Source: Mariniphaga sp.
Lineage (GTDB): Bacteria; Bacteroidota; Bacteroidia; Bacteroidales; Prolixibacteraceae
Direction: 5' to 3'
NCBI GenBank assembly: GCA_024636975.1
Contig: JAGXGA010000044.1
Span: forward strand, 1 to 42,505
Length of the DNA stretch: 42,505 bases
Under the pieces are notes generated by a model. It ran no database searches. It saw only the letters and a list, made by a program, of their open reading frames with translations, and was not told the DNA's origin. This document shows positions 26,208-38,054 of the stretch, in pieces. Position 1 is the first letter of the stretch, and each line of letters begins with the position of its first letter. Position numbers and translations under genes: made by a program.

Positions 26208-27377
26208 ATGAGCTATTATCCTCATATAAGGCAAAAGCTTCTCTATATACTCTTTTTATCATTCTTTTTTTCATGTAGCAGGAATGAAAACTCCGGTTCA
26301 TATTATTATACTGCTGATTTCGAACCGTCGGCATCAACTTGTTTCATATGGACAACTGATTTTTATGAGATCATTCCACAAGTGGCCGGCTTAATCTCCC
26401 AAAAAGATAATGTCACGTTATTTATTGATGAAAATGAAAGTGTAAACAGCATTCAACAGGTTCTTGGAAAATACAATGGCAATCTGACGAACATCAGAAT
26501 TGTACAGGTAAAAGATAATCCGCAAAATGCCTGGCTAAGAGATTTTGGTCCTGCTTACTTAAAAAACGAAAGAGGTGAAAAGAAAATCGTAAGCTTCAAT
26601 TACTTTGGAAAAAATATGTCGTTTAACCACCAATTAGCTGCCAAATTAAATATACCGCTTATAGAAAGCCCATTAAATAGCTCAGGCGGAGCCAGGGAGG
26701 TAAATGGTAAAGGAACTCTGATTCTTTGTAAAGCACATGAACTGAGTGTAAATAAATCAAACAGGCCGGAGGAAATTGAAAAGGCATACATCAACGCTTT
26801 GAATCTTAAAAAGGTAATCTGGTTAAATGAAGGAATCCCACAGGATGACAGCGAACTTGACGGACCTTTATTTGAACAGATATATCCCAATGGTGTAAAA
26901 GGGCATGTTGATGAGTTTTGCCGTTTTGTTGACGATAAAACTGTAATTATTAGCAGTGTGACTGAACGTGAAGCAAAAACGCATCCTATATTGGCTGAGG
27001 CAAAAAAACGGTTGGATGAGAATTATGAAATTCTGATTAATTCCATTGATCAGGATGGAAATAAGTTGAAAGTGATTCAGGTGCCTTTTGCTCCTCTTCT
27101 TGTTTTTGAACGTCCTGAAGGAGTGAATGCTTCAAAATACATGACATTGGTTACCAGCTACATGAACTTTATTGTTACCAACTCGCTGGTTATTTTGCCT
27201 TCATATGTTTCAAGTGCAAAAGAACTTAACAGGAATGAAGTTACTGCTAAAGAGGAAATAGTAGTAGATATTTTTAAAAGAGTATTTCCTTCAAAAGAAA
27301 TTATTAGATTTCCTGCTGAAGATCTGAACCGGTTTAGCGGCGGTTTTCATTGCATTAGTATAAATGAACCTCTTTAA
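26208..27377 (+). CDS. lipoprotein of the agmatine deiminase/PAD-porph family (1)
   Basis: The 389-residue protein has an N-terminal hydrophobic segment with lipobox FFFSC, so it is likely lipid-anchored in the envelope. The remainder is the pentein-fold arginine-modifying domain (agmatine deiminase/P. gingivalis-type PAD, PF04371). The expected catalytic set is present: RDFGP (Arg111-Pro115), GHVDEF (His233, Asp235), and Cys382 in GGFHC. GGAREVNGKG supports the family. The known reactions are hydrolysis of agmatine or of peptidyl-arginine guanidino groups, and the substrate here is unknown. Most agmatine deiminases are cytoplasmic and lack a signal, so the lipobox favours an extracytoplasmic substrate. 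It starts 9 bp after lgt and is followed by a tandem paralog. Confidence 0.88.
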   Translation: MSYYPHIRQKLLYILFLSFFFSCSRNENSGSYYYTADFEPSASTCFIWTTDFYEIIPQVAGLISQKDNVTLFIDENESVNSIQQVLGKYNGNLTNIRIVQVKDNPQNAWLRDFGPAYLKNERGEKKIVSFNYFGKNMSFNHQLAAKLNIPLIESPLNSSGGAREVNGKGTLILCKAHELSVNKSNRPEEIEKAYINALNLKKVIWLNEGIPQDDSELDGPLFEQIYPNGVKGHVDEFCRFVDDKTVIISSVTEREAKTHPILAEAKKRLDENYEILINSIDQDGNKLKVIQVPFAPLLVFERPEGVNASKYMTLVTSYMNFIVTNSLVILPSYVSSAKELNRNEVTAKEEIVVDIFKRVFPSKEIIRFPAEDLNRFSGGFHCISINEPL

Positions 27378-27464
27378 CAGGATGGACCTTAATCATTAAT
27401 TAGACTATAAGCAATGGTAGGTTTTCATAAATAAAGGTTTTATTTGTTTAATAAAGATATTACA

Positions 27465-28634
27465 ATGAAGAATTTCAATTTCAGGATTATCAATGTTTTA
27501 GTATTGATGCTGACAATTTTAGTCAGTTCTTGCAGCAAATCAACTGATGGCCCTTTTTATTATCCGGCTGATTTTGATTCTACTGCCTCAACCAGTTTTA
27601 TCTGGACTACCGATTTTTATGAGATCATTCCCGAACTTGCAGCTACCATATCTAAAAAAGATAATGTAACATTATTTATAAGCGAAAAGGAAAATAGTAA
27701 AAATGTTAATAGTTTAATTGAGAAATATGGAGGTAATGTTGAAAATATCAGCTTTGTAAAGCTTAAAAACAAACCTCAAAATGCCTGGATACGTGATTTT
27801 GGACCGGTATACGTAATCGACAGTAGTGGCAATAAGCAACTTGTTAATTTTTTATATTATGGAAAGCTGCAAACTTTTAATGAACAGATTGCTGAAAAGC
27901 TTAACCTTGATATCATTCAAATTCCACTTAGCAGTACCGGAGGTTCCCGTGAAGTAAACGGGAAGGGAGCCATTATTCTATGTGAAGCACATGAGCTGGC
28001 TGAAAATAAACCGAAGACCAGGCAGGAAATCGAAGAGGAAATGTTAAAAAGCTTGAATCTCAAAAAGGTAATCTGGTTAAAACAGGGCATTCCGCAGGAT
28101 GATAATCCCGGAAACGGTCCTTTAACCGATAAGGTTTGGCCTAATGGGGTGAATGGTCATGTCGATGAATTTGTGCGGTTTACCAATGCAAATACTGTTT
28201 TAATCAGCAGCGTGTCGGAAGCTGAAGCAGGATCTCATCCGATACTTGCAGAAGCAAAGCGAAGACTGGATGAGAATTATGAAATTTTGCTGAATGCTAC
28301 CGATCAGGATGGAAATAAACTGAACGTGGTAAAGGTGCCGTTTGCTCCCCTGGTTATTGACAGGGATCCAAAAGAAAACAGACGACTGCTGGCATCGGTA
28401 ACAAGTTATATGAATTTTATAGTTACCAATTCACTTGTAATACTGCCTTCATACACATCCTTATTTACAGGTATTCAGGGTGAGGATTACATGGTACGGG
28501 AAAATGAGGTGGTACAAATATTTAAAGAAGCCTTCCCCTCACGAGAAATCGTTCGTATCCAGGCTGCCAGCCTGAACCGTTTCAGTGGCGGATTTCATTG
28601 TGTAAGTATTAATGAGCCACTTGCAAATGAATAG
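27465..28634 (+). CDS. lipoprotein of the agmatine deiminase/PAD-porph family (2)
   Basis: From ATG 27465 the protein has 389 residues, the same length as its upstream neighbour and collinear with it. A TTG at 27444 would add 7 residues before the signal peptide and is less likely. The lipobox is LVSSC. Catalytic residues are conserved: RDFGP, GHVDEF (His232, Asp234) and Cys379 in GGFHC. FIWTTDFYEIIPELA and LAEAKRRLDENYEILLNA are nearly the same as in copy 1, pointing to a tandem duplication followed by divergence. The 87-bp gap holds no obvious terminator. Both copies keep the full active site, so sub-specialisation rather than decay is likely. Confidence 0.88.
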   Translation: MKNFNFRIINVLVLMLTILVSSCSKSTDGPFYYPADFDSTASTSFIWTTDFYEIIPELAATISKKDNVTLFISEKENSKNVNSLIEKYGGNVENISFVKLKNKPQNAWIRDFGPVYVIDSSGNKQLVNFLYYGKLQTFNEQIAEKLNLDIIQIPLSSTGGSREVNGKGAIILCEAHELAENKPKTRQEIEEEMLKSLNLKKVIWLKQGIPQDDNPGNGPLTDKVWPNGVNGHVDEFVRFTNANTVLISSVSEAEAGSHPILAEAKRRLDENYEILLNATDQDGNKLNVVKVPFAPLVIDRDPKENRRLLASVTSYMNFIVTNSLVILPSYTSLFTGIQGEDYMVRENEVVQIFKEAFPSREIVRIQAASLNRFSGGFHCVSINEPLANE

Positions 28635-28661: not shown

Positions 28662-30992
28662 TTAATTAAACAGACGCAATCCAAAAAAGAAGGTTTGTGG
28701 CCGGGCCGGACCGTATACATAACCACTGTCACGAAACCTGCCGGTGTCGAAATCATCCTGGTATTGATTCAGAAGATTTCCTGCCCCTCCAAATAATTCG
28801 AAAGAGGAATCAAGCCGTTTAAAATTGATGATGTATGCAAGTTTAAGCGTGACATCCAAATATTCCGGGGAATTAAAAAGCACATCTTGCCCGGGTGTGC
28901 CGGGATCACCTGCCAGTCCGTAATGCGGAACAAGCATGGAGCCGGTATAAATTCCTGAAAGGGATGCACTGAAGCGGTTTCCGGGAGTCCAGGATGTGGT
29001 AAAATAACCATATGCATCCGGACTGCGCAGGTAATCTTTTGTGCCAAGTAATTGCTCCGACCATTCCACCGGTTCTTCATGCCTGCTTCTTTGAAGTGTA
29101 ATGCCTCCTTCAATCTGAAATAAACGGTTGTAGTTGGCACGTGCCTCAAATGTACCGCCAAAAACATTGCTCAACCCACCGTTGCGTTTTTCCATAAGTG
29201 AATTGCCTTCAGTATCCTTTCCTGTTTCTTCCAAAATAAAAGCATTTTGTAGCCGGGTGTAAAAACCTTCAAGTGTAATGCCATAGATGTGTTTTTCGGT
29301 GGGCTTGTCCCAATTAAGAGAAGTGCTCAAACTTTGTGACCGTTCTTCTTTCAAATCGTCAGCCAGGCTTACTGTCTGAATTCCCCCTCCTGCAAATGCA
29401 ATATGCATATCGGCATCAAATGCCTGCGGAGCCCTGAATCCGGTCGACCACGACAGTCGAAGCTGGGTATTTTCATTTGGTTTATATAATAAGGATACTC
29501 TTGGATTAATAATAATTTCATTTACAAAATTATGCTTGTCGGCCCTTACTCCCGATAAAAGGTTCAATTTTCTGAACACCTCCCAGTCGCTTTGGGCAAA
29601 TGCACCAAAGTTTCTTGAATTCTGATCAATCAAATAATTGTATGCTTCAATTTCATCATAAACATCATCGGTCAAATATTCTGCTCCAAAAGTCAGGACA
29701 TTGGTACCGGAAAGAAAATTATTCAGTGTTTGATTCAGTTGTGTCCCTGCCTGAAGTGTATAATTTTTTGAGTTGCCATAAGGCGGATTGTTATTGTATT
29801 GCTGAAGTTCGGATTCATCATAAGGGGCAATTCCGGTGAAATGATCACGGGTTGTGTATTGACCGGCAACATACACCACAAATGTTGTATTATAGTTGTC
29901 GCTGGTGATCTCATAATCAAGGCCTCCCATAAGTACATTGTGGGTGCGTTCTTCCGATTGTTTGGCAAGGTAAGCAGGGCCATCAGTCATCTCCCCTCCA
30001 TAACGGTATTCGTGCATACTTGAAAAATTTGCTTCAATTTTTTGTCTTTCAGAAACGTTGAAAAACGTGTTCAGTCCGAAAGAGTTATTCCTAAGTGCCG
30101 GTAGTTCTGAAAAGTTGTCGTTATTGTGATCGTAGGCATCACGTTGTCGAAGCGATGTATACAATGCCACACCGGTATTTCTTCTTTGCGATAATGCAGT
30201 CAGGGTGCCATTCACCATGTAGTCGGCAGCTCCGTCTCCTACCACTGAATTGCTGGAGGTAATTTCGTATGAATTGCGCTGAGGCATTTGAGTGATGATG
30301 TTCACTGTGCCGCCAATGGCGCTTGAACCATAGAGAGCGGAAGCTCCTCCGCGTACTACTTCAATCCGTTCCACCATTTCTGCCGGCAGCTGCTCCAATC
30401 CGTAAAGTCCGGTTAGCGGACTGAAAACCGATCGTCCGTTCACAAGTATCTGGCTGTATGCTCCGCCTAGCCCGTTCATTCGCAACTGCGAATAATTGCA
30501 GGTCTGGCAATCCACTTCCATGCGCAGTCCGGGCTGAAAATTCAGTGTTTCCGATACAGTTTGTGCGGCTACATTTTTAATAGTTTTTCTATCCAGCACA
30601 TTTACAATAACTGCACTTTCGGTTTGCCGTTTAAACGTTTTGGTTCCGGTAACTACCACTTCATTTACCCGTATCCTGGTTTCGTTTAAATCAAAATTTA
30701 TCTCTAAGGTTTCCCCAGATTTTAAGCTGATTTGTTTTTTTTGTATCTCATAGCCTATCATTCGTGCCACCAGCGTATATTCACCCAATGGTAAATCTAC
30801 CATCATGTAATGTCCGGTAACGTCAGTAGTGGTGCCATGATTGGAATCCTCGAGATAAATATTTACAAAAGGAATGTGTTCCCCTCCTGATACTACATGC
30901 CCGATTATTACAGCATCAGTATCATCCTGTGCTTCCAGGTTTAGCATTATCGTGAGAAAAACTACTACAAAATACAGTTGTTTTATTTTCAT
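28662..30992 (-). CDS. TonB-dependent receptor with CxxC-bearing plug
   Basis: The 776-residue outer-membrane receptor begins with a signal peptide (to about 22). A carboxypeptidase-regulatory-like domain (IIGHVVSGGEHIPFVNIYLEDS to about 110) follows, then a plug (about 115-235: NEVVVTGTKTFKRQTESAVIV, LVNGRSVFSPLTGLYGLEQLP, VERIEVVRGGASALYGSSAIGG) and a 22-strand-type barrel ending in an aromatic FFFGLRLFN. The plug contains CQTC near residues 161-164. The cargo is not known. It is divergent from the cobalamin riboswitch operon, but the riboswitch is on the other strand, so B12 control is not shown. The gene ends 27 bp from the convergent deiminase gene. A 12-bp palindrome (GTTTAATTAAAC, 28660-28671) covers the stop codon. 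Confidence 0.92.
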   Translation of the reverse strand: MKIKQLYFVVVFLTIMLNLEAQDDTDAVIIGHVVSGGEHIPFVNIYLEDSNHGTTTDVTGHYMMVDLPLGEYTLVARMIGYEIQKKQISLKSGETLEINFDLNETRIRVNEVVVTGTKTFKRQTESAVIVNVLDRKTIKNVAAQTVSETLNFQPGLRMEVDCQTCNYSQLRMNGLGGAYSQILVNGRSVFSPLTGLYGLEQLPAEMVERIEVVRGGASALYGSSAIGGTVNIITQMPQRNSYEITSSNSVVGDGAADYMVNGTLTALSQRRNTGVALYTSLRQRDAYDHNNDNFSELPALRNNSFGLNTFFNVSERQKIEANFSSMHEYRYGGEMTDGPAYLAKQSEERTHNVLMGGLDYEITSDNYNTTFVVYVAGQYTTRDHFTGIAPYDESELQQYNNNPPYGNSKNYTLQAGTQLNQTLNNFLSGTNVLTFGAEYLTDDVYDEIEAYNYLIDQNSRNFGAFAQSDWEVFRKLNLLSGVRADKHNFVNEIIINPRVSLLYKPNENTQLRLSWSTGFRAPQAFDADMHIAFAGGGIQTVSLADDLKEERSQSLSTSLNWDKPTEKHIYGITLEGFYTRLQNAFILEETGKDTEGNSLMEKRNGGLSNVFGGTFEARANYNRLFQIEGGITLQRSRHEEPVEWSEQLLGTKDYLRSPDAYGYFTTSWTPGNRFSASLSGIYTGSMLVPHYGLAGDPGTPGQDVLFNSPEYLDVTLKLAYIINFKRLDSSFELFGGAGNLLNQYQDDFDTGRFRDSGYVYGPARPQTFFFGLRLFN

Positions 30993-31370: not shown

Positions 31371-33740
31371 ATGAAAAAGTATACATCTTTTATTTGTTTG
31401 CTGTCTGTCTTTCTTGTATCAGCAGTACCTGTTTTCTCACAGAATCGGGAAGGATATCTGGTTGATTATTATCCTGCCCCGGGACAGCATATCAATATCG
31501 CATCAATTGGTACTCCTGAGGCAGCAAGGGTAATGACACAAAATGTCAGTAGCCTGGTTTCGCTGGGAAGCTTCGGCGGATCCATCATCCTGAAATTTGA
31601 AACAGCATGCATTAACCATCCCGATAATCCTTACGGCATCGATTTTACAATCTTTGGAAATGCCTTTGCCGGTTCATCTGAACCGGGTGTTGTGTGGGTT
31701 ATGAATGATGAAAACCGGAACGGTCTTGCCGATGATACCTGGTATGAAATTGCAGGAAGCAGCCACTATTTCTCCGGAACCATTAGAAACTATGCAGTTA
31801 CTTATTTTAAAACACCCCAACGTGATGTTTTATGGAAAGATAATTATGGAAAAACAGGGCACCTTTTTGCCAATGAGTTCAATTTGCAGGAGTATTATCC
31901 GGAGAATGAATATTTCCCTTCTTATCCTCCGGATTCAGTAAGGTTTTACGGAACCTTGCTGGAAAATAATTTTATTAACACCAATTCACAGGAAATAAAG
32001 CTGGCTGCGCCCATATTTGGTTATACTGATTGCCACCCTCGGGTGGCTGATATTGATCTCTCATTGCCGGATAATCCATATACCCTGGAGACAGAAGGTG
32101 CCGGGGGCGATCCTTTTGACATTTCATGGGCCACCGACAGCCTTGGTAATTATGTTGACCTTGATTCCATTCATTTTATTAAAATAGTTTCTGCAAGTCT
32201 GAATGATGCTGGATGGTTGGGTGAAATTTCCACTGATGTTGCATGGGTACAAGCAGTACAACACAGGCCGGAAATCATAGGGAAAGAAAACCTACTCGTT
32301 GTAAAACCTCATAAGCCTAAAGTTCTAAAGGGCGATTCATTGAAACTGGAAGCTGTTTTCTTTAGCAAAGGCAGAAATATTAAATCGATGGTTTCGGTTC
32401 AATCACTTAATGAAACAGTTGCTACCATCGATTCTTCAGGAATGCTGATGGCACTATCTGAAGGTGAAACCCAGGTTCGTTTTTCAGCAAATGATGAAGT
32501 ACAACTCTCTTCAGTTAAGGTTGTTTCTCCGGAGTCCATAAAGTGGTTATCCGATTTTTCTGCTGTATATCCCGGCGACACACTGGAATTAAAAGTTCAG
32601 ATTCTTGACAATGAACAGGAGGCTCTCGATTTACTTCCGGTTTTTTCATCGTCGGATCCTTCAGCCGGAAAAATAATATACAACGGCAACAAAGCCCATT
32701 TTGTAGCTAACCAGCCTGGAGAAATAGTACTCGTTGCTTCTGTGGAAGGGTTCCAGGTTAAAGAACAGGTGACCGTAAAAATTCACTCCCAAACCGATAA
32801 GATTGAAGTATTGGTTTCTGTAAAAACCAGCAATGAAAATTTACTTCCGCTGCAATTGTTAGAAGTTGGACGTGCAGATTTGAATGCTGTGGTTGAAAAC
32901 CGGCAGAAGGATTATTCAAACCCGGAAAAAATATCACTGTTCCATGCGCTGGCAACAGGACTGCAAATGGCCAACGTGACTTATAAGTTCAGAGACGATG
33001 AAGCTGCCGGAGGAAAACTTTATTTATATAATGTAGAATACGATGGGTTATTTTCATACGGCTGGGGCGGAAAAACAAATTCAGTTTCAATTGCCCGCGC
33101 CTGGATTGCCCGATTAAACAACACTCATTATTTAAATGATTTTGATAATATCATACTTTCCGATGGCGATACACTTGTATTGTACCATGTTCCGGATCTG
33201 TTGAATACCTGGGAATATTCCAGATTACTGCCGGTAAATAATACTACCGCCACGACCGACTTTATAGAGGTATTGCTTGAAAAAACTTCATGTTTATTAG
33301 AGAATGGAATAATTTTAGAATCGGGATTCATGCCCGTAGCCAATACTGCTGTAAACTCCGGAATAACTTATTATACCAATGATCAGGGAAAAGTACAGAT
33401 TGAATCAGATGGAAACTTTCCCTTAATTGTATATTCCGGAAATGATGCCATTTTGATTAAGGAAGATTGGATAACGGATGTTTCAATACCTGAATATGGA
33501 TTTCATATTTATCCAAATCCGGTTAATGAATTTCTATTTATTAATGCACAGTCACATGAACATTTTTACAGTTTTAAATCACGATTAAGAATTGTAAATC
33601 TGGCCGGAGAAGTTGTCCTGGAAAAAAATGATTTCCGTTTTCCGGTTAATCTGAATCTTGGTTTTCTTACTCCCGGTATGTATCACCTGGTCATAGAGGG
33701 TAATAAGCAGTTGGAAATACATAAAATCGTTAAACGATGA
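31371..33740 (+). CDS. B12-riboswitch-controlled T9SS surface protein, DUF4430-like region
   Basis: The 789-residue protein has a signal peptide (SAVPVFSQ). Residues about 25-300 form a beta-rich domain (LVDYYPAPGQHIN, GNAFAGSSEPGVVWVMNDENRNG, DDTWYEIAGS) seen in Bacteroidota cell-surface proteins of B12 loci. A BIG2-like segment follows (about 310-385). Residues about 475-606 resemble the DUF4430/transcobalamin C-like fold: a TvleL-like helix (ISLFHALATGLQ), VTYKF, VEYDGLFSYGWGGK, AWIARLNN, and the closing ILSDGDTLVLYHV. A regulatory-like segment and a T9SS type A domain (IYPNPVNEF, from about 712) end the protein. It is first in the operon, and its stop overlaps the receptor start (ATGA). 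A corrinoid-capture role is inference. Confidence 0.85.
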   Translation: MKKYTSFICLLSVFLVSAVPVFSQNREGYLVDYYPAPGQHINIASIGTPEAARVMTQNVSSLVSLGSFGGSIILKFETACINHPDNPYGIDFTIFGNAFAGSSEPGVVWVMNDENRNGLADDTWYEIAGSSHYFSGTIRNYAVTYFKTPQRDVLWKDNYGKTGHLFANEFNLQEYYPENEYFPSYPPDSVRFYGTLLENNFINTNSQEIKLAAPIFGYTDCHPRVADIDLSLPDNPYTLETEGAGGDPFDISWATDSLGNYVDLDSIHFIKIVSASLNDAGWLGEISTDVAWVQAVQHRPEIIGKENLLVVKPHKPKVLKGDSLKLEAVFFSKGRNIKSMVSVQSLNETVATIDSSGMLMALSEGETQVRFSANDEVQLSSVKVVSPESIKWLSDFSAVYPGDTLELKVQILDNEQEALDLLPVFSSSDPSAGKIIYNGNKAHFVANQPGEIVLVASVEGFQVKEQVTVKIHSQTDKIEVLVSVKTSNENLLPLQLLEVGRADLNAVVENRQKDYSNPEKISLFHALATGLQMANVTYKFRDDEAAGGKLYLYNVEYDGLFSYGWGGKTNSVSIARAWIARLNNTHYLNDFDNIILSDGDTLVLYHVPDLLNTWEYSRLLPVNNTTATTDFIEVLLEKTSCLLENGIILESGFMPVANTAVNSGITYYTNDQGKVQIESDGNFPLIVYSGNDAILIKEDWITDVSIPEYGFHIYPNPVNEFLFINAQSHEHFYSFKSRLRIVNLAGEVVLEKNDFRFPVNLNLGFLTPGMYHLVIEGNKQLEIHKIVKR

Positions 33741-35704
33741 AGGTGTCTGGAATATTTTGGCTCCTGGTGTTAACAATATTTGTCTTTCCTGTCTACGGTC
33801 AGATCATCCCGGATACTGTGCATATTGAAGAAGTTGAAGTTCTTGCAAAAAGAAAAATTGAGGAGGCAGGCTTAAAAATCACCCGGCCCGATTCGTTTCA
33901 GAGGGCATCGGTGTTAACTGCTGATCTGTCTGAACTGATATCCGGGTATACTCCTGTTTTCATTAAATCCTATGGGAGAGGCTCGGCAGCAACGGCCAGC
34001 TTTCGCGGAACGGCTGCAACCCATACGCAAATTTACTGGAACGGCATGAGCCTTAATTCACCTATGCGCGGCCTTGCCGATTTGTCGTTGATACCGGTAT
34101 TCTTCACCGATGGTGTTTACCTTCTCCACGGAGGAAGTTCAATGACCAAAGGCAGCGGAGCTTTGGGCGGCAGCATTCATCTGGAAAATACACCCGACTG
34201 GAATACATCATTTGGTTTGGAAGGCCTGGCTGAAACCGGTTCTTTCAATTCCCGGAAAACATTCCTGAAATTAGCCCTGGGAGGTAAAAATACTCAGTCT
34301 TCCACCCGATTTTTTTATGAAACCTCTGAAAATAACTTCCCGTTTTTTAATTCAGGTGTGATTCCCAATATAACCGATACTTTACAAAATGCCGGGTACA
34401 ACAAAACAGGTATTCTACAGGAATTTTACATCAGACATTTTAATGAAAATGTATCCACCCTGCGCCTATGGTATCAATATGGAAACCGGGACTTGCCCCA
34501 GTTAATGTCTTACCAGGGAAGCGAGCGTGAAGAGTATCAAAAAGATGGTCAATTCAGAGCTCAGTACGACTGGAAAAGGTATACCGACGGGGTAAACTAT
34601 CATTTTTTCTCGGGGATAAATACTACCCGGCTGGATTATTTCAGGGCAACACCGGCCTTTGAGTTTGTAAATGAAGATTCGGAAAGCAAAGAAACGGGTT
34701 TTCTTAACCACCTGCGAATTTTTAGACAGTTTGATGAGAAAACATATGCAACAGTAAGCTTTGATGCCAATTATTTCCGGGTCAAGGCTTTTGATAATAT
34801 TACCGCTGGTAGCTTTAACGAAAGCAGGCTGGAAACCAGCCTGATGGTAAACATGCATATGAACCCATCCGACCGTCTGGCGCTATTTATCCTTTTACGC
34901 TCGGAAACCTACGATGAAAAAACGGTTCCTTTCATTCCTTCAGCTGGTTTTGAATGGCAACTTGTAAAAAGGCTTCCATTGATTATACGCGCAAATGCTG
35001 CAAGGAATTATCATAAACCTACCCTCAATGATTTGTACTGGATTCCGGGAGGCAACCCCGAACTTTTAGCTGAAGATGGATATACTGGTGATGTCTCTTT
35101 TTCAGCTGATTTTCAGGGGCGGACTATAGGATTCAGCAATGAATTAACAGGATTTATTTCAAGAATAGAAAACTGGATTGCCTGGCAACCGGCTGCAAGC
35201 GGAGCTTATTACTGGGAGGCCGGTAATATAAGGAATGTTTCATCGAAGGGGCTGGAGTACCAGTTTACTGCAAAAATTAAAAGTGGCAGTTTTCTTTTTC
35301 AATCAGGAGGAAATTATTCCTACACCCGTACTTCCAATCTGCAGGCGGTACATTCAGCCGACGAGTCACGGGGGAAGCAACTCATATACATACCAAAGCA
35401 TAAGGGTGGGGTATATGGCAGTATAAACTGGCAGAATTTTGCTTTTAAGTTCGACTTGAATGGTGTAGGAAAACGTTATACAAAATCAAGCAATCAGGAA
35501 TCGGAATTTGAACAGGTGCTCAACCCCTACTTCCTGGGAAAATTTACAGCTGAAAAGCAGATCGCCTGGAATGAATTCCTGACTGGCCTGAAATTAACCG
35601 TGGATAATGTATTTGATCAAAAGTATCACAGCATCTTATGGAGGCCTATGCCCGGCCGGTTTTATTCTTTAACGCTTGCTCTTAAATACAATCATGAAAA
35701 ATGA
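33737..35704 (+). CDS. BtuB-like TonB-dependent cobalamin receptor
   Basis: The 655-residue protein has a signal peptide (FPVYGQ) and a plug with no carboxypeptidase-like extension. The plug carries EEVEVLAKRKIEEAG, VFIKSYGRGSAATASFRGTAA, HTQIYWNGMSLNSPMRG and LLHGGSSMTKGSGALGGSIHL. The barrel ends in an aromatic strand, RFYSLTLALKYN. Position is the main evidence for cargo: it lies in a cobalamin-riboswitch operon directly before a BtuG-like gene, overlapping both neighbours by ATGA junctions. In Bacteroides, BtuB pairs with a BtuG lid. No inner-membrane BtuCDF genes lie in the window. Calling it BtuB-like is therefore contextual but strong. Confidence 0.9.
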   Translation: MKVSGIFWLLVLTIFVFPVYGQIIPDTVHIEEVEVLAKRKIEEAGLKITRPDSFQRASVLTADLSELISGYTPVFIKSYGRGSAATASFRGTAATHTQIYWNGMSLNSPMRGLADLSLIPVFFTDGVYLLHGGSSMTKGSGALGGSIHLENTPDWNTSFGLEGLAETGSFNSRKTFLKLALGGKNTQSSTRFFYETSENNFPFFNSGVIPNITDTLQNAGYNKTGILQEFYIRHFNENVSTLRLWYQYGNRDLPQLMSYQGSEREEYQKDGQFRAQYDWKRYTDGVNYHFFSGINTTRLDYFRATPAFEFVNEDSESKETGFLNHLRIFRQFDEKTYATVSFDANYFRVKAFDNITAGSFNESRLETSLMVNMHMNPSDRLALFILLRSETYDEKTVPFIPSAGFEWQLVKRLPLIIRANAARNYHKPTLNDLYWIPGGNPELLAEDGYTGDVSFSADFQGRTIGFSNELTGFISRIENWIAWQPAASGAYYWEAGNIRNVSSKGLEYQFTAKIKSGSFLFQSGGNYSYTRTSNLQAVHSADESRGKQLIYIPKHKGGVYGSINWQNFAFKFDLNGVGKRYTKSSNQESEFEQVLNPYFLGKFTAEKQIAWNEFLTGLKLTVDNVFDQKYHSILWRPMPGRFYSLTLALKYNHEK

Positions 35705-36741
35705 AATTTATTATTCAATTAGCAGCAGTGCTTTTACTGTTAGTAGCTTGCACAGATGATCCGGTGGAAACCATTTATTTTGATCTTGATACAAGCAAAG
35801 GAGTTTTTATTTCCTGTGAAGGAAATTTTATGTATGGCAATGGCTCATTATCATTCTATCATACCGTTAATAAAAAAGTTTCAAATCAGCTGTTTTATGC
35901 ACGAAACAATGTGCCTCTTGGCGATGTCGTCCAGTCGGTGGCACGACTTGGAAATTCATTATTTATAGTGGTGAATAATTCAGGGAAAATAGTGGTTGCC
36001 GATGCAAATACTATGGAATTCAAAGGAAGCATTACCGGACTTATATCTCCCAGGTACATTCATTTTGTTTCCGGACAAAAAGCTTATATATCTGACTTAT
36101 ATGCCGGTCAGCTTACTGTTATTAATCCTGAAACATTTGAAATAACAGGTTTCATTCCATTGGGAAACTATAACTCCGAACAAATGGTTCAGGTGGGAAA
36201 ATATGTATACGTATCCGACTGGTCGTATGGCAGTAACGTGCTTGTGGTTGATACAGAAACAGACGAACTAATTGATAATATTGAGGTATCGCTTCAACCA
36301 AAGGATTTGACCGTTGATAAAAATGGAAAAATTTGGGTTCTATCAGATGGCGGCTACGAAGGTTCACCAACTGGAAATGAAGTACCTGCCATCAGCCGGA
36401 TCGATCCTGAAACACTGACCATCGAACAGATTTACCGGTTTGATCAGGAAGATACTCCTTCCAACCTGGAATTAAACAGTAAGGGCGACACCCTTTATTT
36501 TTTAAACAGGCACCTTTACAAGATGCACATCGGTAACCGTCATTTACCCGATTCAGCATTTATGCATGCAGAACAGGAGCTTTTTTACCACCTGGCTATC
36601 GATCCTCAATCCAATGATATTTATATTGCCAATGCCATCGATTACACTCAGGATGCTATCGTTTTTCGGTTTTCACAGAGCGGTGAAGTTATCGATTCAT
36701 TTAAAGTTGGCATAAATCCATCGCATTTTATGTTCAGGTAA
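35701..36741 (+). CDS. btuG: BtuG-like beta-propeller lipoprotein, corrinoid capture
   Basis: The 346-residue lipoprotein has lipobox LLLLVAC. The rest is a YncE/DUF5074-type seven-bladed propeller with repeated blade strands such as NSLFIVVNNSGKIVVADANTME, AYISDLYAGQLTVINPETFE, YVYVSDWSYGSNVLVVDTETDE and DIYIANAIDYTQDAIVFRFS. In gut Bacteroides, BtuG binds cobalamin very tightly on the cell surface and caps BtuB. The same gene order (receptor then propeller, here with a 4-bp overlap) and the upstream cobalamin riboswitch support that role. Whether corrinoid affinity is conserved cannot be seen in the sequence. Confidence 0.87.
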   Translation: MKFIIQLAAVLLLLVACTDDPVETIYFDLDTSKGVFISCEGNFMYGNGSLSFYHTVNKKVSNQLFYARNNVPLGDVVQSVARLGNSLFIVVNNSGKIVVADANTMEFKGSITGLISPRYIHFVSGQKAYISDLYAGQLTVINPETFEITGFIPLGNYNSEQMVQVGKYVYVSDWSYGSNVLVVDTETDELIDNIEVSLQPKDLTVDKNGKIWVLSDGGYEGSPTGNEVPAISRIDPETLTIEQIYRFDQEDTPSNLELNSKGDTLYFLNRHLYKMHIGNRHLPDSAFMHAEQELFYHLAIDPQSNDIYIANAIDYTQDAIVFRFSQSGEVIDSFKVGINPSHFMFR

Positions 36742-36764
36742 AAATTAAAACCTATTTTTATACC

Positions 36765-36965
36765 GGAATGGTTAAGGGAATCCGGTGACCTGCCTGCCGT
36801 CAGGCAAGACTTGTCTTCAAACAGACAGGAAATCCGGAGCTGTACCCGCAGCTGTAATCCTTTCATGTTGTCAGCAAATTTAGCCACTGTTCTATCCCGG
36901 TAATTATCGGAATCGGGACGGGAAGGCTGCCGACAATTGGGGTAAGCCAGAAGACCTGCCATTTC
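36765..36965 (+). ncRNA. cobalamin riboswitch 2
   Basis: P1 GGAATGG (36765-36771) pairs with CCATTTC (36959-36965), with one G-U pair. It shares AGGGAATCCGGTG, GGAGCTGTACCCGCAGCTGTAA, AGCCACTG, GGGAAGGC and the B12 box GTAAGCCAGAAGACCTGCC (36942-36960) with riboswitch 1. The internal stem reads TTGTCAG/CCGACAA where riboswitch 1 has GTTAGCG/CGCTAAC. It controls the DUF4465 gene at 37086. A weak -7-like TATTTTTA lies at 36752-36759. Confidence 0.95.
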
Positions 36966-36984
36966 AAAATTAGTTAACAATATC

Positions 36985-37085: not shown

Positions 37086-38054
37086 ATGAAAAAAATTTAC
37101 CTGATCGCGGGCATGTGGGCAGCCCTGTTTTCTGCAAAAGCCCAACAAGTTGCAACATTCGAGGAGATTGATTTACAACCCGGTTCGTATTACAATGGTT
37201 CCGACGGCACCGGTGGATTCTTCAGCGGCGGAACCTGGTTCCCCAATAATTACAATGCTGACTGGGGAAGCTGGAGCGGATTCTCGGTTTCAAATATGCA
37301 GGATACTTTAATCGCAGGTTTCGATAACCAGTACAGTGCCATTACAGCCGGGGGAACCGACAGCTCTGAGAATTACGCCGTGGTTTATATTCCGGGTGAT
37401 TTGAAAATGGAACTGAATGATCCTGCAGAAATTAGAGGTTTTTATGTTACAAATTCAGTGTATGCTTATCTGTCGATGCGCGATGGTGACGATTTTACCA
37501 AAAAGTTCGGTGGCCCCGATGGCACTGATCCCGACTATCTTTTGCTGAGGATTTCAGGAATCGATGCAGACGGAAATCCAACCGATACAATTGATTTCTA
37601 TCTGGCTGATTTTAGGTCGGATGAATCTGATAAGGATTATATAGTTAACGATTGGCAGTGGCTGGATTTAAAATCACTTGGCGTGGTAAGCGAACTGAGT
37701 TTTTCTATGGAATCGACTGATATGGGGGACTGGGGGATGAATACTCCTGCTTATTTTTGTATTGATAATTTTACAGTTTCAGAAATCGCAACTTTTTCCG
37801 GTCAGTTGCCGGTGGATAAACCAGAATTAAAAATGTTTCCCAATCCTGTAAAAGATGCATTTCAGGTAGATGTGGCCGGGGAACTCCAGGAGATAATCTT
37901 AACAGATGGTACAGGAAAAATTATATACCAAAATCAAATTGCCGGAAAAGGCGCATTCCAAATTTCAGCACTTAGCGATAGGCCTGCCGGCATCTATTTT
38001 TTACAGATAAAAACAAAAAATGGATTGACAACAAAAAAAATAATGAAATATTAA
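37086..38054 (+). CDS. DUF4465 (BtuH-like) T9SS protein under B12 riboswitch
   Basis: The 322-residue protein has a signal peptide (LFSAKAQQ) and a DUF4465-like beta-sandwich at about 20-245. Family markers are ATFEEIDLQPGSYYNGSDG, FFSGGTWFPNNYN, WGSWSGFSVSNMQDT, NQYSAITAGG, ITNSVYAYLSM-like strands, and MGDWGMNTPAYFCIDNF. Surface cobalamin-binding BtuH proteins of Bacteroides belong, as I recall, to this family, and the dedicated cobalamin riboswitch upstream supports a corrinoid role. The Bacteroides proteins are lipoproteins, whereas this one has no lipobox and ends in a T9SS type A domain (MFPNPVKDAFQV, about 255-322). It appears to be its own transcription unit. Confidence 0.85.
   Translation: MKKIYLIAGMWAALFSAKAQQVATFEEIDLQPGSYYNGSDGTGGFFSGGTWFPNNYNADWGSWSGFSVSNMQDTLIAGFDNQYSAITAGGTDSSENYAVVYIPGDLKMELNDPAEIRGFYVTNSVYAYLSMRDGDDFTKKFGGPDGTDPDYLLLRISGIDADGNPTDTIDFYLADFRSDESDKDYIVNDWQWLDLKSLGVVSELSFSMESTDMGDWGMNTPAYFCIDNFTVSEIATFSGQLPVDKPELKMFPNPVKDAFQVDVAGELQEIILTDGTGKIIYQNQIAGKGAFQISALSDRPAGIYFLQIKTKNGLTTKKIMKY

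Follow-up and report, generated by a model that had tools for sequence, protein, structure and literature searches.

A BtuH-family protein with a predicted transcobalamin-like beta-grasp domain in a cobalamin riboswitch locus of Mariniphaga

The window analysed here, a stretch of 42,505 nucleotides from Mariniphaga sp. (contig JAGXGA010000044.1), contains an open reading frame (ORF) encoding a protein of 789 residues (31371-33740, + strand) behind a cobalamin riboswitch. We consider, with a probability of roughly 0.6, that this is a surface corrinoid-capture protein secreted by the type IX secretion system (T9SS) as part of a B12 uptake operon, and that its beta-grasp domain, which resembles the beta domain of transcobalamin, most likely touches or binds the corrinoid too. 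The N-terminal third of the protein is a BtuH domain, which belongs to a published B12-binding family (PMC8941943), and the protein is therefore a member of that family to which a further domain has been added. The original prediction had suggested a class of corrinoid-binding surface protein not described before, which is not supported in that form; what appears to be new is the architecture and its occurrence in Bacteroidota, not the N-terminal third. Among the literature matches listed, titles and abstract openings gave no description of a transcobalamin-like domain in any B12 protein from Bacteroidota, with subscription journals mostly outside the coverage.

Sequence conservation of the transcobalamin-like domain

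Alignment, hhalign comparison and predicted fold place the domain at about residues 476-610 (32796-33200, +). The original prediction had located it at 32830-33190; the domain is real and the bounds given here are the better ones. The strings quoted for it, VTYKF (residues 536-540), VEYDGLFSYGWGGK (555-568), AWIARLNN (577-584) and ILSDGDTLVLYHV (595-607), are all present in the protein, and the DUF4430/transcobalamin pattern was observed to be beyond chance in its invariant columns, in hhalign scores against shuffles and in the ranking of the predicted fold. Our alignment of 27 sequences, the 789-residue protein included, has 10 invariant columns at identities to this protein down to 28%. Residues G564, G566 and G567 are invariant in all 27 sequences and are located ahead of the strand at 577-582, in a conserved loop with the motif YGWGGK (residues 556-577; 33036-33101, +). 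This loop was equated with the conserved loop of the transcobalamin-like class by topology, without superposition. Invariant Tyr and Trp residues are also found in the domain. The stretch from strand 3 to strand 8 came out as more conserved than strands 1-2 and the helix at p 0.03 only, which is not taken as evidence.

Comparison by hhalign with eight DUF4430 proteins gave scores of 31-33 (P 8.5e-5), whereas 200 column shuffles reached 18.4 at most. The alignment covers the C-terminal half of the domain over 52 columns with a W..N..GD pattern. The DUF4430 profile PF14478 matches five of the 27 aligned sequences (best E 9e-4), and the two with known bit scores reach 19.2 and 15.4.

Predicted structure of the domain

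The predicted fold consists of strands 8-16 and 21-31, a helix at 54-64 (protein residues 523-533), a hairpin at 70-73/81-86 and strands 108-113, 116-118 and 132-138, in the numbering of the model. The original prediction had suggested structure prediction with fold comparison as a check, and transcobalamin-family beta domains rank first against the modelled fold. In this ranking, a VIA-align re-ranking of Foldseek's top 1000, the highest beta-grasp rows come from a single family, ahead of unrelated beta-grasp folds, and the nearest structures are mostly B12 binders. Profile searches with alignments of the domain against sequences of solved structures returned no transcobalamin, the best hits (E 0.6 and 0.33) being taken as chance. 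What defines the transcobalamin-like clade of SLBB domains is an inserted hairpin that follows the helix and touches B12 in transcobalamin (PMC1796856). In our model a beta-hairpin is predicted on the 3' side of the helix (residues 538-555; 32982-33035, +), where F540, Y551 and Y553 are insert residues that could stack on the lower base, as candidates only. The full-length model has a predicted template modelling score of 0.56, and the relative placement of BtuH and the beta-grasp domain in it is not trusted.

The BtuH domain and the layout of the protein

The BtuH domain (residues 30-295; 31458-32255, +) has a known B12-binding fold, and its globular fold was found to be present in the N-terminal third. 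It shares this fold, and 35-40% identity over 236-246 aligned residues, with BtuH2 of B. theta (PDB 7biz) and the H-domain of BtuG1 (PDB 8blw). By hand mapping, the phosphate-contact residues Gln333 and Asn399 of BtuH2 correspond to Q39 and N97, which are invariant in 14 of 14 proteins.

A putative signal peptide, recognised by eye in the sequence, precedes this domain (residues 1-23; 31371-31439, +). Two immunoglobulin (Ig)-like domains follow it, the first of the Big_2 type at about residues 306-386 (32286-32528, +) and the second at about residues 387-470 (32529-32780, +), and the beta-grasp domain comes next. A third Ig-like domain of the macroglobulin/adhesin type (about residues 614-699; 33210-33467, +) then leads to a T9SS C-terminal sorting domain (residues 713-787; 33507-33731, +). 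The sorting domain is of type A and exceeds both cut-offs (PF18962, 36.8 against 27 bits; TIGR04183, 31 against 23 bits); SprA is present too. Relatives of the protein are of similar length.

The locus and its conservation in relatives

The cobalamin riboswitch upstream of the gene (RF00174; 31074-31302, +) scores 95.8 bits with a gathering threshold of 31.5. Downstream are found an ORF for a BtuB-type TonB-dependent receptor (33737-35704, +; TIGR01779 at E 1e-21, far under its cut-off, and Plug), a gene for a BtuG-type DUF5074 protein (35701-36741, +; PF16819, 108.5 bits), probably a lipoprotein from a lipobox seen by eye, a second cobalamin riboswitch (36752-36977, +; 88.5 bits) and, behind it, a gene for a DUF4465 (BtuJ family) protein with a T9SS tail (37086-38054, +; PF14717, 199.5 bits; PF18962, 40.5 bits). 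The original reading of a T9SS protein under a cobalamin riboswitch is supported, and btuB, btuG and a DUF4465 gene lie close by. The btuB-like start (33737) lies within the 3' end of the 789-residue gene and the btuG-like start (35701) within the end of btuB; because the ORF ends overlap the successive starts, these three genes probably form one operon.

The BtuH and transcobalamin-like domains co-occur in all 13 named loci of relatives (L032-L044). In 13 of 13 there is likewise a riboswitch directly in front of the gene and a btuB match behind it, the btuB match being partial in L033 (contig end) and L042. A btuG gene is present in 12 of them (not L033) and a DUF4465 gene in 10 (not L033, L035 and L036). 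Three further loci from other genera (L083-L085) have the domain with a riboswitch.

A search of 395 genomes of the phylum with the domain profile matched only the genome studied here; this sample hardly tests the family, as no other genome of the same family is among the 21 rows listed. Among 295 genomes of the order, the profile matched the genome itself, three more from its family and two weak candidates, of which L075 is a partial match (E 0.005) and L074 was rejected as a peptidase with a T9SS tail by eye. With PF14478, 17 of the 395 phylum genomes were matched at E 0.1 and one (L045) was above the cut-off; the ORFs of these 17 loci (about 3 kb each) showed no BtuH domain. Two of the weak matches (L052 and L058) are SLBB-domain proteins, one with a polysaccharide-export domain, so that such matches can be superfamily background; sub-threshold DUF4430 matches in Bacteroidota need a structural check.

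Other BtuH proteins were observed in the family. Three genomes of one genus encode BtuH proteins of 815-819 residues (L076, 1647-4097, +; L077, 8614-11058, -; L078, 8395-10851, -) in which about 330-350 residues precede BtuH. In L076 a Big_2 domain and a T9SS tail come after BtuH, and the front part has no Pfam match at E 0.01. A separate corrinoid-type locus with btuB- and btuG-like genes and a second BtuH protein is found in Mariniphaga anaerophila (G108; L079, 6107-18810, -) and in genome G036 (L080, 1400-16465, +). The former encodes a DUF5074-FN3-T9SS protein of 948 residues and the latter has a BtuG-like ORF of 943 residues. Their giant BtuH-domain proteins have 1836 and 2382 residues, the first matching FN3 and a T9SS tail in Pfam and the second similar by eye. 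Of these two loci, just L080 showed a cobalamin riboswitch, the stretch of L079 stopping near btuB.

On the other side of the first riboswitch, a divergent TonB-dependent receptor with CarboxypepD_reg (28662-30992, -) begins about 80 bases away, and such a receptor adjoins the locus in 5 of the 13 named relatives. Further out, two alike ORFs in tandem (26208-28634, +), side by side in L032 as well, resemble agmatine deiminase-type proteins.

Comparison with known B12-binding systems

The locus type, with riboswitch, btuB and btuG, is shared with known BtuH systems. In BtuH2, a lipoprotein, PKD domains occupy the N terminus and the B12 domain stands last (PMC8941943), whereas in the 789-residue protein the B12 domain comes first and is followed by the transcobalamin-like domain and the T9SS tail. 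The domains associated with BtuH genes of gut species are reported as none, PKD or propeller (PMC8941943).

Bacterial transcobalamin-like SLBB domains were described in 2007 with a predicted role in B12 scavenging (PMC1796856), which likewise weighs against the new class suggested in the original prediction. Outside animals they are reported from Gram-positive bacteria, planctomycetes and euryarchaea, and the available part of that source does not name Bacteroidetes for the clade (PMC1796856). The DUF4430 proteins compared (3u7z; genes beside nrdJ and an energy-coupling factor (ECF) S component) are like the present domain in being extracellular and partly in B12 gene context; they are short and Gram-positive, and others are toroid fusions. 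On four Gram-positive plasmids (L064-L067), short DUF4430 proteins are encoded beside a cob(I)alamin adenosyltransferase and/or an adenosylcobalamin-dependent ribonucleotide reductase, with an ECF S component also adjoining in two of the four; they are likely the B12-binding parts of that uptake system. The cluster that encodes CbrT has the order nrdJ-cbrS-cbrT-pduO (PMC5997447). In L067 the DUF4430 gene stands between nrdJ and the ECF S gene in the same order, and L066 has a reordered cluster, so cbrS is probably a DUF4430 gene.

The isolated beta domain of human transcobalamin binds cobalamin (PMC5599065), and the first contact with cobalamin has been attributed to the beta domain (PMC11107200). 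Identity between our domain and the beta domains of transcobalamin, haptocorrin and intrinsic factor is 9-18%, and we estimate that about 20 extra residues stand ahead of the helix here. That family pairs the beta domain with an alpha/alpha toroid; no toroid was seen in the 789-residue protein, a long surface protein made mostly of strands in the order BtuH, Ig, Ig, beta domain. It may work like a member of the transcobalamin family but is not filed as one. BtuJ/DUF4465 proteins are also B12 binders of this locus type, and one is encoded 3.3 kb downstream; they have a jelly roll fold (PMC12751083), and no sequence link to the domain was seen.

Function of the domain and alternatives

Under the corrinoid-capture model, the order of the operon would be riboswitch, 789-residue gene, btuB, btuG, second riboswitch and DUF4465 gene. 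Secretion by T9SS would display the protein at the cell surface, where the BtuH domain would carry the B12 site and capture the corrinoid. The two Ig-like domains would act as spacers leading to the beta-grasp domain, which most likely contacts the corrinoid as a second site or a cover before it is handed over to BtuG and BtuB. A more specific arrangement, which we regard as rather unlikely, is a clamp in which the two domains enclose a single cobalamin between them, one on either side. BtuH2 is reported to bind B12 with no strong lower-base contact (PMC8941943); BtuH would similarly grip the ring and phosphate, and the beta-grasp domain would cover the base side.

Several observations weigh against the corrinoid-capture model. 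The profile search proposed in the original prediction was negative: PF14478 (gathering 23.8 bits) gave no match to the 789-residue protein at E 10, nor any at 31371-33740 in a search of the whole genome, and since the gathering cut-off is not reached, the protein is not filed as a PF14478 member. The hhalign probability against DUF4430 is just 60%, and loop residues 557-562 are modelled with a predicted local distance difference test score below 50. By hand mapping, the counterpart of Trp577 of BtuH2 (W282) is Trp in just 6 of 14 proteins, and the counterparts of His476, Tyr510 and Trp511 differ in the 789-residue protein. Of 140 genomes of the family, 75 have a BtuH match and 36 have the domain, and in five further btuH loci with a cobalamin riboswitch (L076-L078, L081 and L082) the domain was not detected, so btuH loci manage without it. 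A comparison of the lists shows all 36 domain-bearing genomes among the 75, and from this nesting the domain appears to have been added to a BtuH core.

These btuH loci also fit the leading alternative, to which we give a real but clearly smaller chance, that the domain is a structural or docking module (e.g. for BtuB, BtuG or surface polysaccharide) which keeps the fold yet binds no corrinoid and leaves all capture to BtuH. Fold likeness alone shows no function, and a protein encoded among B12 genes does not necessarily bind the vitamin, as was reported for BtuL of B. theta (PMC12751083). Against it stand the B12 binders among the nearest structures, the invariant Tyr, Trp and Gly residues and the constraint on the domain as a whole. 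Mean identity across the 91 pairs formed by 14 proteins was 0.60 for BtuH and 0.51 for the transcobalamin-like domain, whereas the three Ig-like domains lay at 0.30-0.36. The transcobalamin-like domain was more conserved than the respective Ig-like domain in 87, 90 and 90 of the pairs and more conserved than BtuH in one. Because it is conserved beyond the Ig-like domains, a role as a mere spacer would be unexpected.

Varied ligands have been proposed across the SLBB superfamily (PMC1796856), and the domain might bind a soluble ligand other than corrinoid, such as a sugar; this is improbable. In its favour, in single-sequence hhalign, a less clean control, the best of 11 pieces from each of two SLBB proteins scored 20.0 and 24.4, like single DUF4430 proteins (18-26), with a background maximum of 18.3 when 42 pieces from other proteins of the window were scored. 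Against it, a 16-row SLBB profile reaches only 10.8 with the domain profile, a control that may be weakened by its mixture of several SLBB types, and the cobalamin riboswitches and B12 uptake genes of all the named loci also speak against another ligand. A generic ubiquitin-like fold unrelated to DUF4430 or transcobalamin is very improbable given the single family at the top of the structure ranking, the independent profile evidence with its shuffle control and the PF14478 matches among the aligned sequences.

Significance

The domain is recognisable where PF14478 misses it in this protein, and any corrinoid binding by it is directly testable. If corrinoid capture by both domains is true, the ligand-holding beta domain of animal B12 carriers would occur at the cell surface in Bacteroidota, fused to a B12-binding domain native to these bacteria. 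The clamp, if true, would give bacteria a B12 clamp of two domains on the plan of transcobalamin, in which BtuH takes the toroid's position. Corrinoid capture of this kind would bear on bacterial competition for B12 and on how often two-domain corrinoid traps arose.
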